Assembly (NCBI GenBank): GCA_029219425.1
Contig: JAQXTJ010000039.1
Coordinates: 1-32,515 of the forward strand
Reading direction: 5' to 3'
Source of the DNA: Bacteroidales bacterium
GTDB lineage: Bacteria > Bacteroidota > Bacteroidia > Bacteroidales > Muribaculaceae
Length of the DNA: 32,515 nt
The notes under the pieces were generated by a model. That model searched no databases, had not been told where the DNA came from, and saw nothing but the letters and a program-made list of their open reading frames with translations. A program made the translations under genes and the position numbers. Shown one piece after another: positions 3 to 4,832 of the stretch (positions within the stretch are counted from its first letter, which is position 1; every line of letters begins with the position of its first letter).

Positions 3-662
3 TCGAAGGCTCTTATGGAGAAGGTGGCCATTGCCAAGGGGCGTGAGCTGGGTGATGACGCTGCCACCACCATCTGCTGCACGCGCTATGGCAACGTGAT
101 GGCGAGCCGTGGCTCTGTGATTCCGCTGTGGGTGGACCAGATGCAGGAGGGCAAGCCCATAACTATCACCGACCCCAACATGACGCGCTTCATGATGACG
201 CTCGACGACGCTGTTGACCTGGTGGTGTATGCGTTCACACATGGGCGCAATGGCGACCTTTTTGTGCAGAAGGCTCCGGCTGCCACGCTGAGTACGCTTG
301 CCGAGGCGCTGAAGCAGACTTATGCGCAGGTTGATCCTAAATATTGCGACACTGAGGTGAGGGTGATTGGCACTCGCCATGGCGAGAAGCTATATGAGAC
401 GCTGGTGACGCGCGAGGAGATGGCCAAGGCTATCGACATGGGCGACTACTACCGCATTCCCTGCGACACGCGCGACCTTAACTACGACAAATTCTACACG
501 GAGGGGAGTGAGGATGTGTCGCGCATTGAGGACTATCACTCGCACAACACTCACCGCCTCGATGTGGAGGAGATGAAGCAGTTGCTGCTGAAGCTGCGGT
601 TTATTCGCGAGGACCTGGGGCTTCAGCCGCGTGCCAAGGCTAAGGAGATAAGGAGTGAATGA
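3..662 (+). CDS. fnlA: UDP-N-acetylglucosamine 4,6-dehydratase/epimerase (CapD/FnlA/WbjB-like), C-terminal part; 5' end lies outside window
   Basis: Open frame runs to the window edge (SKALMEKVAIAKGRE...); extended SDR motifs RYGNVMASRGSVIPLW, DPNMTRFMMTLDDAVDLV, GTRHGEKLYETLVTREEM; followed by wbuC, capF/fnlB and a wecB-like gene. Confidence 0.9.
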   Translation, partial: SKALMEKVAIAKGRELGDDAATTICCTRYGNVMASRGSVIPLWVDQMQEGKPITITDPNMTRFMMTLDDAVDLVVYAFTHGRNGDLFVQKAPAATLSTLAEALKQTYAQVDPKYCDTEVRVIGTRHGEKLYETLVTREEMAKAIDMGDYYRIPCDTRDLNYDKFYTEGSEDVSRIEDYHSHNTHRLDVEEMKQLLLKLRFIREDLGLQPRAKAKEIRSE

Positions 663-688: not shown

Positions 689-1084
689 ATGAAGATAGAC
701 AATGCTTTGCTCGACAGGCTTAGCGAGGAAGCCAGGCGATCGCCACGCCTGCGCATGAACTACGACATGCGCACAACTGCGGCCGATGGCAGCCAGCGAA
801 TGCTCAATGCCCTTGAGCCGGGCACGGTGCTGCCCATTCACCGTCACCGCACCACTGCTGAGACTGTGGTGGGCATCCGCGGACGGCTGAAGGAGACGTT
901 CTATGACGATGACGGGCACTTGACGGGCACTTTCATCGTGGAGCCGTGTGGCGAGTGCCCGGTGCTTCAGGTGCCTGCCGGCGTGTGGCACTCATCGGAG
1001 AGCCTTGAAAGCGGCACGGTGATATTTGAGGCAAAGGATGGGGCATACGAGCCTTTGTCGGAAGAAGACATATTGTTGAAGTGA
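689..1084 (+). CDS. wbuC: WbuC family cupin-fold metalloprotein
   Basis: 131 aa; cupin motif LPIHRHRTTAETVVGIRGRLKETFYDDDG...; located in sugar nucleotide operon. Confidence 0.85.
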   Translation: MKIDNALLDRLSEEARRSPRLRMNYDMRTTAADGSQRMLNALEPGTVLPIHRHRTTAETVVGIRGRLKETFYDDDGHLTGTFIVEPCGECPVLQVPAGVWHSSESLESGTVIFEAKDGAYEPLSEEDILLK

Positions 1085-1206: not shown

Positions 1207-2409
1207 ATGAGGATATTAGTGACAGGTGCGAAGGGGTTTGTCGGGAAGAACCTTTGCGCCCAACTGAAGAATATACGCGATGGGAAGGCGCGTTGCTACG
1301 GCGACTTGGCGATAGAGGAGGTGCGTGAGTATGACATCGACTCTACGGCTGAGGAACTCGACCGCTGGTGCAGCGACTGCGACTTTGTGTTTAATCTTGC
1401 CGGAGTGAACCGTCCGCAGAATCCGGAGGAGTTCATGCAGGGCAATTTTGGCTTTGCTTCCACTCTGCTCGACACATTGAAAAAGCACGGCAACCGCTGC
1501 CCGGTGATGCTGGCGTCGAGCGCACAGGCTTCTTTGGCAGGACGTTTTGGCAACTCGGAGTATGGCAGCTCGAAGAAGGCCGGTGAGGAGCTGTTTCTTG
1601 CTTATGGGGCTGAAACAGGGGCGAGTATGCTTATTTACCGATTCCCTAATCTCTATGGGAAGTGGTGCCGCCCCAACTACAACTCGGCGGTGGCTACATT
1701 TTGCAACAATATTGCCAACGACCTGCCAATCACAGTGAACGACCCGAGCGTGGAGCTGGAGCTGCTCTATATTGATGACCTTGTGGATGAGATGATTGCC
1801 GCACTCAAGGGTGAGGAACACCGCTGCGAGTTTGACGGGCTTGAGGTGCTGCCGGGTGCCGGTGGACGCTATTGCTACTGCCCGGTGACGCACAAGGCCA
1901 CTCTTGGAGAAATAGTTGACTTGCTGCACGGCTTTGCTGCGATGCCAAAGACGCTGATGATACCCGAAATTCCGGCTGACTCGCTGGCGAAACGCCTCTA
2001 CAGCACTTTTCTGAGCTATCTGCCGAAGGAGAAGACTATTTTCGACCTGAAGATGAATTGCGACGACCGTGGCTCATTCACTGAGCTGGTGCGCACGCTG
2101 AAATGCGGACAGGTGTCGGTGAACATCAGCAAGCCCGGCATCACCAAGGGGCAGCACTGGCATCACACGAAGTGGGAGCAGTTTATCGTGGTGAGCGGAC
2201 ACGGACTGATTCAGCTACGCAAGGAGGGCACCGGCGAGGTCATCAGCTATGAGGTGAGCGGCGAGCGAATACAGAGCGTGATAATGCTGCCGGGATACAC
2301 CCACAATATCATCAACCTGAGCGACACCGACGACCTGGTGACGGTGATGTACTGCAACGAGCTCTTCGATGCCACCCGTCCCGACACATACTTCGACCCT
2401 GTGGAATAA
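1207..2409 (+). CDS. fnlB: CapF/FnlB-like NAD-dependent reductase with C-terminal cupin domain
   Basis: N-terminal Rossmann MRILVTGAKGFVGKNL, YGSSKKAGEE; C-terminal cupin KPGITKGQHWHHTKWEQFIVVSGHGLIQLR; bidomain layout typical of CapF. Confidence 0.9.
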   Translation: MRILVTGAKGFVGKNLCAQLKNIRDGKARCYGDLAIEEVREYDIDSTAEELDRWCSDCDFVFNLAGVNRPQNPEEFMQGNFGFASTLLDTLKKHGNRCPVMLASSAQASLAGRFGNSEYGSSKKAGEELFLAYGAETGASMLIYRFPNLYGKWCRPNYNSAVATFCNNIANDLPITVNDPSVELELLYIDDLVDEMIAALKGEEHRCEFDGLEVLPGAGGRYCYCPVTHKATLGEIVDLLHGFAAMPKTLMIPEIPADSLAKRLYSTFLSYLPKEKTIFDLKMNCDDRGSFTELVRTLKCGQVSVNISKPGITKGQHWHHTKWEQFIVVSGHGLIQLRKEGTGEVISYEVSGERIQSVIMLPGYTHNIINLSDTDDLVTVMYCNELFDATRPDTYFDPVE

Positions 2410-2497
2410 CCGGAAATTCGTGTAAATGTTTTGGCGTTTTCTCGCAGATGCGTTATAGAGGGGCAATTTTGGCTCTCGCAGAGGTATGGAGTACGCG

Positions 2498-2712
2498 AAG
2501 GCATTATTAGATGCGCAATCGATGTGCATCGCATTCCGGGAGCAGGCTTGCTTGAGTCGGTGTACCCCAGAAAGCATTGTCTTAAGAATTGAAATCGAAT
2601 GGGTATAAGGTTGAGGAAAACTCGATAAGCCTATTGGACTGTTGATTAACTTTATATTCTCCCCTTGATACCCTCTTTTGAGGACATCAATCCCGTTAGC
2701 AGACAAGGCTGG
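2498..2712 (+). pseudogene. GxxExxY family protein remnant (frameshifted and internally deleted)
   Basis: Manual 3-frame reading: GIIRCAIDVHRIPGAGLLESVY (from about 2498), then ELKSNGYKVEEN in another frame (about 2593-2625), then KPIGLLINFIFSP (from 2627). These resemble the start, middle and C-terminal parts of GxxExxY proteins. Confidence 0.65.
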
Positions 2713-2742
2713 TAAGTGGTATAAGCCAAGAACGGAATTTTG

Positions 2743-2931
2743 AGGTGATAGCGAACGATACGCGGAGAGCTATACGAAGATTACTGAAGATTATACGGAC
2801 TTGAGTGATAGAGGTTATGATATCATTGATAAGGTAGAGATTGGTTGTGTGCTTTTTGTGGGTATCAATCCTTCTTACGATGAATCCAGGAGTGTTGCTG
2901 ATGCAAGCATTATCATGCGCTATTGGCAATA
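2743..2931 (+). pseudogene. Fragment resembling a uracil-DNA glycosylase-like family protein
   Basis: Frame without a start codon: GDSERYAESYTKITEDYTDLSDRGYDIIDKVEIGCVLFVGINPSYDESRSVADASIIMRYWQ*; the LFVGINPSY motif is UDG-superfamily-like. Low homology certainty. Confidence 0.35.
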
Positions 2932-2973
2932 ACACTTTTAATCTTGATGAGTTGCAAACTTTATTGCTTAAAA

Positions 2974-3005
2974 TTTGTTGGAGAAGTGGATTTTATCTAC
3001 TTTTG
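2974..3005 (+). promoter_or_regulatory. Bacteroidetes-type promoter (TTTG-N20-TACTTTTG) for the 3029 ORF
   Basis: TTTG at 2974-2977, 20-nt spacer, TACTTTTG at 2998-3005 (TAnnTTTG consensus), 23 nt upstream of ATG 3029. Confidence 0.5.
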
Positions 3006-3028
3006 CATCAAATAAATCAGTCAGGAAT

Positions 3029-3220
3029 ATGAGTATAAGGGAATATCGTTTGACCTCGACGGAGGAACCGTCAGATGAGTTTTTTCATGAGCTGATGCTC
3101 CAGGTTGCAGAATCGGCAAGGGATAGTTCGGAAAGAGCCGAGCAGGCATTGCGCAAGATGATGATGGAAACGATAGCCACCATCAATAAACAGCGAAACG
3201 TAGTGCCTAGTCAAATTTGA
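3029..3220 (+). CDS. Small protein, putative partner/antitoxin of a zeta-like toxin
   Basis: 63 aa MSIREYRLTSTEEPSDEFFHELMLQVAESARDSSERAEQALRKMMMETIATINKQRNVVPSQI; ends 10 nt before the ATG of the zeta-like remnant; helical, charged. Confidence 0.6.
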   Translation: MSIREYRLTSTEEPSDEFFHELMLQVAESARDSSERAEQALRKMMMETIATINKQRNVVPSQI

Positions 3221-3230
3221 TTGTCGAGAT

Positions 3231-3553
3231 ATGAGTTCCGTTCAACGACCGGTACTTTGTGTGGTTGCCGGGCCAAATTCTATGTCTGCACTGAAAATCC
3301 TAATATCAATGTGCTGCGTATTGCCCAACGCTATCTGAATGGCGGACATGAAGTGCCAATTTCGAAGATTTTCAGCCGTTACTATAAGTCGCTGACATTT
3401 GCAGCACAGGCAATCAGGTTTGTTGATAGGGCATACGTCTATGACAATTCGCGTGAGAATGAGCTTCCGCAACTGCTTTATCGCACATCAGAAGGTTCGG
3501 TTTTCAAAAGATATTCCGACAATATCCCATTGTGGGCTGAATCATTGATTTGA
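3231..3553 (+). pseudogene. Zeta toxin-like P-loop kinase, internally deleted (Walker A core missing) and frameshifted
   Basis: N-terminal stub MSSVQRPVLCVVAGPN (3231-3278) lies in a different frame from the C-terminal part AKFYVCTENPNINVLRIAQRYLNGGHEVPISKIFSRYYKSL...VDRAYVYDNS...IPLWAESLI (about 3275-3553), which is typical of zeta-toxin family proteins. Confidence 0.75.
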
Positions 3554-3638
3554 TAATATTTATAACATTCTTGTCGTTCCGAGAGTCTTCTTCCGGACGA
3601 TTAACTTGCATCCAATTATTTCTGAAGAATCAATCATT

Positions 3639-4832
3639 ATGGAACAGAAACAACCGAAATACGATTACTCGGATGTGCATTTCGAGGACAATGGGAAGAT
3701 AAAGCTGATTATTGTGGTGGGGACGAGGCCGGAGATTATCAGGCTGGCTGCGGTGATTGACAAGTGCCGCCGCTACTTCGACGTGATTCTCGCCCACACC
3801 GGGCAGAACTACGACTACAACCTGAATGGAATTTTCTTCCGCGACCTGAAGCTGGCTGAGCCAGAGGTGTATATGAACGCTGTCGGCGATGACCTCGGGG
3901 CTACTTGTGGCAATATTATTAATTGCTCCTACAAGCTCTTTGCGCAGACGAAGCCCGATGCCGTTCTGGTGCTGGGCGACACAAATTCGTGCCTATCTGT
4001 GATTGGCGCGAAGAGGCTGCATATACCAATCTTCCACATGGAGGCAGGCAACCGCTGCAAGGACGAGTGCCTGCCCGAAGAGACCAACCGCCGCATAGTG
4101 GATATTATCAGCGACGTGAATATGGCTTATTCGGAGCACGCCCGCCGCTATCTCGCAGATTGTGGCTTGCCCAGGGAGCGAACCTATGTGACCGGCTCAC
4201 CTATGGCCGAGGTGCTTCACAACAACTTGGCCGAGATTGAGGCGAGCGATGTGCACAGTCGGTTAGGGCTTGAGAAGGGAAGGTACATACTTCTCAGTGC
4301 GCACCGCGAGGAGAATATCGACACTGAGAAGAATTTCCTCTCGTTATTCACAGCCATCAACAAGATGGCAGAGAAATATGATATGCCTATTCTCTACAGT
4401 TGTCATCCCCGGAGCCGCAACCGCCTTGCCGCGAGCGGGTTCAAGCTCGATGAGCGTGTGATTCGGCATGAGCCACTCGGATTTCACGACTACAATTGCC
4501 TGCAAATGAACGCGTTTGCCGTGGTGAGCGACAGTGGCACTCTTCCCGAGGAATCATCGTTCTTCACCAGCGTGGGGCATCCATTCCCGGCGATTTGCAT
4601 ACGCACATCCACCGAGCGTCCTGAGGCAATCGACAAGGCCGACTTCATCATTGCCGGAATCGACGAGAAGTCGCTGCTTCAGGCAGTGGACACGGCAGTG
4701 GAGCTGTGCCGCGACGGGCATCATGGCACGCCTGTGCCCGACTATGTGGAGGAGAACGTGAGCACTAAGGTGGTGAAAATCATACAGAGCTATGTGGGCA
4801 TAGTGAACCGCATGGTGTGGCGTAAATACTGA
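3639..4832 (+). CDS. fnlC: Non-hydrolysing UDP-N-acetylglucosamine 2-epimerase (FnlC/WbjD/CapG-like)
   Basis: KLIIVVGTRPEIIRLAAVI, HTGQNYDYNLNGIFF, HMEAGNRCKDECLPEETNRRIVD, SDSGTLPEESSFF; operon context. Confidence 0.9.
   Translation: MEQKQPKYDYSDVHFEDNGKIKLIIVVGTRPEIIRLAAVIDKCRRYFDVILAHTGQNYDYNLNGIFFRDLKLAEPEVYMNAVGDDLGATCGNIINCSYKLFAQTKPDAVLVLGDTNSCLSVIGAKRLHIPIFHMEAGNRCKDECLPEETNRRIVDIISDVNMAYSEHARRYLADCGLPRERTYVTGSPMAEVLHNNLAEIEASDVHSRLGLEKGRYILLSAHREENIDTEKNFLSLFTAINKMAEKYDMPILYSCHPRSRNRLAASGFKLDERVIRHEPLGFHDYNCLQMNAFAVVSDSGTLPEESSFFTSVGHPFPAICIRTSTERPEAIDKADFIIAGIDEKSLLQAVDTAVELCRDGHHGTPVPDYVEENVSTKVVKIIQSYVGIVNRMVWRKY

Follow-up and report, generated by a model that had tools for sequence, protein, structure and literature searches.

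The stretch analysed here (the window, 32,515 bp) is the whole of contig C39 from an uncultured gut bacterium of the Muribaculaceae, whose draft assembly totals 2.47 Mb in 203 contigs and is 86% complete. At its left end, the window carries an L-FucNAc-type operon with fnlA, wbuC, fnlB and fnlC (Table 1). As in the known fnlABC, wbjBCD and capEFG operons, an FnlA, an FnlB-type reductase and an FnlC-type 2-epimerase are encoded together (TIGR04130, NF047837 and TIGR00236/PF02350, respectively), and all four genes, wbuC included, are matched by family models. The FnlA and reductase scores fall below the equivalog cut-offs, fnlA being truncated at the contig end, and the exact sugar made is therefore putative. 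Two features set the window apart from these operons: wbuC separates fnlA from fnlB, and the distance from fnlB to fnlC, usually -7 to 50 bp, is 1,229 bp (2410-3638). The initial annotation had placed the end of fnlB at 2409 and the start of the next gene at 3639, which is right, and had described the biosynthetic genes as intact, which holds: all four reading frames are open, that of fnlA as far as the contig start. The intervening DNA is AT-rich, with a GC content of 33-46% in five sub-stretches versus 54-59% in the operon genes.

Table 1. Features at the left end of the window, with the evidence for each.
Feature	Position	Strand	Evidence and remarks
fnlA, 3' part (UDP-GlcNAc 4,6-dehydratase/5-epimerase)	15..662	+	cut by contig start; TIGR04130 FnlA, E 1.2e-89
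wbuC (cupin)	689..1084	+	TIGR04366, E 9.5e-40
fnlB (WbjC/CapF-type reductase), intact	1207..2409	+	NF047837, E 1.7e-101
GxxExxY gene remnant	2494..2653	+	head 2494-2571 in frame 0, middle 2568-2621 in frame 2, tail 2624-2653 in frame 1
Third fragment, possible UDG-like head, identity unproven	2744..2932	+	motif VLFVGINPS; one weak relative in G096
Predicted module promoter	2974..3005	+	TTTG 2974-2977, 20 nt spacer, TACTTTTG 2998-3005
Intact 63-aa ORF, probable antitoxin of the zeta gene	3029..3220	+	homologues in family, gene order, dN/dS 0.11
Zeta toxin, N-terminal stub	3231..3278	+	MSSVQRPVLCVVAGPN; ends at AGPN, cut within P-loop
Zeta toxin, C-terminal part, 91 codons, open	3278..3553	+	P-loop, INPD and FET motifs absent
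fnlC (UDP-N-acetyl sugar 2-epimerase), intact	3639..4832	+	PF02350, E 6.9e-75; TIGR00236, E 3.4e-62

The first guest in the interval is a stretch that we accept as the remnant of a GxxExxY gene (TIGR04256; PDDEXK_3, PF13366), as proposed initially. Its head, which reads EGIIRCAIDVHRIPGAGLLESVYPR, carries the family signature G-x-G-L-L-E-x-V-Y and is followed, collinearly and in another frame, by the tail motif GLLINF; a third-frame piece, ELKSNGYKVEE, lies in the expected place between them behind an internal TAA and alone is not significant. The head matches TIGR04256 at E 1e-4 (22.7 bits, with a cut-off of 35) and PF13366 at E 6.6e-4, both under the curated cut-offs because the fragment comprises only 32 aa, and a profile built from 25 intact members of related genomes recovers the head at E 1.3e-6 and the tail at E 0.0096. 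Compared with intact GxxExxY genes, the window copy is frameshifted, is interrupted by a stop and has lost its core, which would lie between the middle and tail pieces. The gene therefore carries at least one frameshift, one stop and one internal deletion. Our literature search on GxxExxY returned nothing directly relevant.

The next fragment had been described as a UDG-like gene. What it shares with the uracil-DNA glycosylase superfamily is the motif VLFVGINPS alone, spotted by eye, whereas no profile or structure match was obtained for the fragment or for its one relative, and the UDG label stands as an unconfirmed resemblance. The fragment has no match in Pfam, NCBIfam or the PDB, no credible one in PHROGs, none in plasmids or viral contigs, and no other among 397 genomes of the family; among 247 genomes of the order there is one weak match (G096, 43% identity over 42 aa around the motif), and the full protein of that relative (L205) is itself without a Pfam, profile or structure match. 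An 18-nt direct repeat, 83% identical, occupies 2676-2693 and 2854-2871, its second copy encoding LFVGINPS of the fragment.

The distal part of the interval holds the two ends of a zeta toxin gene. Its 91 C-terminal codons are about 45-94% identical to open zeta genes of relatives (69% to that of locus L072), and full-length homologues match Zeta_toxin, PF06414 (L072, E 9e-15; L038, E 2e-11), which bears out the earlier suggestion of an eroded zeta-like gene with its core missing. Intact relatives resemble the zeta/PezT proteins (epsilon/zeta, PezAT, ng_epsilon1/ng_zeta1) in having the P-loop GPNGSGKT, the FET motif and, in most intact pairs, a small overlapping upstream gene, and they also contain an INPD motif; the window copy, in contrast, stops at GPN and resumes after the core, without the Walker A lysine and without INPD and FET. 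In a congener, G002, about 270 bp lie between the two window pieces, which gives the length of the loss. The toxicity of Streptococcus pyogenes zeta depends on K46 (the Walker A lysine), D67, E116, R158 and R171 (PMC6356619). Because residues of this kind are missing, we regard the window gene, from its sequence, as a pseudogene of the family whose product could not be an active kinase.

Directly ahead of the zeta stub lies a small intact ORF. The initial annotation had listed it as a separate item, and it is evidently a real gene: homologues occur in 89 of the 397 family genomes and encode proteins of 59-77 aa with a conserved Y-R-x-x-S-x-x-E-P-x-D-E pattern. The ORF has no match in NCBIfam or PADLOC, none in Pfam above cut-off, no PHROG below E 0.05, and it was not found in viral contigs; searched against the PDB, its family profile (A1) retrieved no credible chain and no epsilon or PezA up to E 10, so that by sequence or profile similarity it falls outside the epsilon and PezA antitoxins. 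The same applies to the solved structures of epsilon, PezA and ng_epsilon1, none of which is matched by the window ORF at a credible E-value. Zeta antitoxins are mutually unrelated, and gonococcal ng_epsilon1 has a fold unrelated to epsilon (PMC5923241). Our search for literature on zeta antitoxins of Bacteroidetes found nothing directly relevant, and a search of the organism's own assembly gave no further copy of either the zeta gene or the small ORF. Upstream of the ORF, in the window and in G002, a predicted promoter fits the Bacteroidetes consensus TTTG / TAnnTTTG (quoted in PMC7366714). A -7 element TAnnTTTG is likewise present within 150 bp upstream of most small ORFs of the homologous loci, and the 78 bp in front of the ORF show 5 differences from G002, with about 29 expected at the synonymous rate (P 4e-10).

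The small ORF and the zeta gene form one two-gene module with its own Bacteroidetes-type promoter rather than two unconnected items, and homologous pairs occur across the family. The small ORF stands directly in front of the toxin in 17 of 17 intact zetas of the subfamily examined (a 243-aa zeta in L060 belongs to another subfamily and is outside this count). In most intact pairs it overlaps the zeta start by 4-28 nt, while in the window and G002 its stop precedes the toxin ATG by 10 nt. No intact toxin lacks the small ORF, as predicted for a toxin-antitoxin pair, and the adjacency of the two genes is that of a zeta toxin-antitoxin module. From gene order, conservation pattern and family membership, we consider the small ORF the probable zeta antitoxin. 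UDP-GlcNAc is the substrate of known zeta toxins, and the gonococcal enzyme phosphorylates several UDP sugars (PMC5923241); by analogy, the small protein was most likely the antitoxin of a UDP-sugar kinase. FnlA also uses UDP-GlcNAc, which is suggestive of a link to the operon; given that the module adjoins many unrelated genes in other genomes, we claim no functional connection.

Damaged toxins beside the small ORF recur outside the genus. At the loci with enough downstream sequence, zeta is intact in 19 of 31 and truncated, frameshifted, internally deleted or absent in 12 of 31, a proportion that is no population estimate because the loci were gathered by similarity to the window and include draft genomes. 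Examples of an intact small ORF with a truncated, P-loop-deleted or missing zeta are L040 (G024 C2), L050 (G015 C8), L076, L077, L081, L084, L089 and L092. At L074 (G378 C3, 947-1653), a pair in which zeta has an in-frame deletion of about 24 aa over the FET motif lies next to a GDP-L-fucose-synthase-like gene.

The initial annotation had proposed a past accessory insertion between fnlB and fnlC. Tight spacing of the two genes is the common state in relatives: the median gap is 21 bp in the family set (29 other operons, 22 of them with 150 bp or less) and 23 bp in other groups (57 operons, 42 of them with 150 bp or less). The longer gaps, found in about a quarter of relatives, usually hold unrelated cargo, the identities of which were judged from sequences and not from profile searches. 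This cargo includes intact GxxExxY genes (L106, L158, L168), acyltransferases, a phosphoribosyltransferase-like gene, a cytidylyltransferase/sugar-kinase fusion (L003, L187), wbuC (L183) and four-helix-bundle genes (L166, L194), and coordinate comparison places GxxExxY just upstream of fnlB in G056 and G049. Parabacteroides faecalis (L104) has simple GGTTAT/ATAACC-type repeats and no gene in its gap, and in L194 the four-helix-bundle-like gene lies on the strand opposite to the operon and is flanked by GCAATT-rich repeats. Because the gaps of relatives hold so many kinds of cargo, the slot is a recurrent guest site, and what happened in the window is a common kind of insertion. A mobile-element origin was also considered and found no support: flanking repeats above 12 nt with at least 90% identity are absent, the one inverted pair, of 15 nt, is weak, and neither a tRNA nor an Rfam family is present.

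The congener G002 allows the decay to be dated relative to the split of the two species. Its fnlA, wbuC, fnlB and the start of fnlC share one 4.3-kb contig, and the first three genes are 85-88% identical to the window in nucleotide sequence (fnlA-wbuC 88%, fnlB 86%); its fnlC is split over two contigs (L066/L067, that is C228 and C130), the N-terminal part being 82% identical, versus 97% for the rest. The same gap holds the small ORF and zeta. It lacks the counterpart of 2410-2943, with GxxExxY and the third fragment, which may reflect loss or later gain, one congener being compared. The G002 zeta retains the core, but tryptophan replaces the first P-loop glycine, and its two halves are put out of frame by a single base in a T run, possibly a sequencing error; the congener thus does not carry the sequence as a set of conserved intact ORFs. 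The shared position and the differing damage mean that the module predates the species split, and it may have broken separately in the two species or acquired one early lesion followed by others.

Between window and G002, the zeta C-terminus differs by 23 synonymous and 4 non-synonymous changes (dS 0.51, dN 0.019, ratio 0.037), with 23 of the 27 differences on third codon positions (2/2/23). The corresponding dN/dS ratios are 0.107 for the small ORF and, comparably, 0.041 for fnlA and 0.072 for fnlB, and non-synonymous change is greater in the small ORF (12.5/150) than in zeta (4/211; P 0.008). The 95% upper limit for the zeta non-synonymous changes is 9.2, compared with 79 expected under neutrality; even if all four changes arose after inactivation, the neutral share of the total path is therefore no more than about 12%. 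With so little of the path neutral, zeta was functional over most of the period after the two species parted, and we conclude from this substitution pattern that purifying selection acted on it during most of that period and that the toxin's decay is recent. To call the gene eroded, with a dN/dS of 0.04 against the congener, therefore overstated its age. Likewise, the small ORF (dN/dS 0.11) is an exception to the description of the interval as decaying and, on the same comparison, is not itself decaying.

Taken together, these observations lead us to think that ordinary accessory-gene turnover is the likely explanation: the module was inherited with the operon, the toxin was recently destroyed and the small ORF, with its presumed antitoxin role, was left open. 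The broad interpretation first given thus survives in several parts, namely that accessory genes were inserted into an intact fnl operon, that GxxExxY and zeta find family matches in 2410-3600, and that at least these two genes were broken by frameshifts and internal deletions. It needs correction in its separate listing of the small ORF and zeta, in the age implied for zeta and in its view of one insertion at what is a recurrent guest site, and its UDG label is unconfirmed. The orphan small ORF could instead be retained for a continuing benefit, such as anti-addiction protection against zeta toxins of incoming elements or neighbours, a role discussed for chromosomal toxin-antitoxin systems (PMC12548467). 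Both congeners have it intact, at a dN/dS of 0.11 and behind a conserved promoter region, and small ORFs beside broken or absent zetas recur, as counted above. However, selection before the recent loss of the toxin accounts for the low dN/dS, non-synonymous change has gone further in the ORF than in the toxin, and damaged toxins may have been over-counted through frameshift errors in drafts; we consider continued usefulness rather improbable.

We give still less credence to the idea that the decay is an artefact of assembly or strain mixing and that the true zeta, and perhaps GxxExxY, is intact. The assembly is a metagenome-type draft, G002 keeps the core of about 270 bp and selection on zeta was strong until recently, all of which would fit such an artefact. 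Against this, the deletion junction shares about 1 base and has no repeat, which makes repeat-driven misassembly unlikely, the G002 zeta is damaged as well, and GxxExxY carries several separate lesions. The interval might also be a functional non-coding or regulatory spacer with protein similarity arising by chance, its one support being that the DNA ahead of the small ORF is more conserved than synonymous sites; yet the concentration of zeta differences on third codon positions largely refutes this reading, family-level matches lie in the right order, no Rfam family is found in the window and relatives lack such a spacer, leaving it a very slim chance.

Under the turnover that we favour, the fnlB-fnlC gap would be a slot that tolerates guest genes and that received a promoter-bearing module of small ORF and zeta kinase as well as a GxxExxY gene and the third fragment. 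The module, seen at this operon in one congener only, was present in the common ancestor with G002 and was inherited with the operon under purifying selection. When made, the small protein would have acted as an antitoxin, binding and inhibiting a zeta kinase that, by analogy with known zetas, phosphorylated UDP-GlcNAc-type sugars. In the window lineage, a recent deletion then removed the P-loop lysine and the substrate-site region, the small ORF staying open. Given that a dead toxin leaves its antitoxin unneeded, the latter should decay next, while the operon enzymes would be kept because the sugar is needed.

The locus offers a clean, small example of the death of a toxin-antitoxin module, in which the toxin appears to have gone first, and recently, while its partner is still open, and the timing can be measured against a sister species in which the module occupies the equivalent position. 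Across distant gut bacteria, the fnlB-fnlC gap emerges as a recurrent landing place for guest genes. For a zeta kinase common in the Muribaculaceae, the likely antitoxin is a small protein family that has no model in the searched libraries. More tentatively, the 63-aa ORF could represent an antitoxin family, so far undescribed, that serves Bacteroidales zeta kinases and persists while the toxin is repeatedly destroyed. In this genus, zeta was kept under selection within an operon that consumes UDP-GlcNAc, the substrate of known zeta toxins, and on this reading it could have been a local regulator of that pathway.
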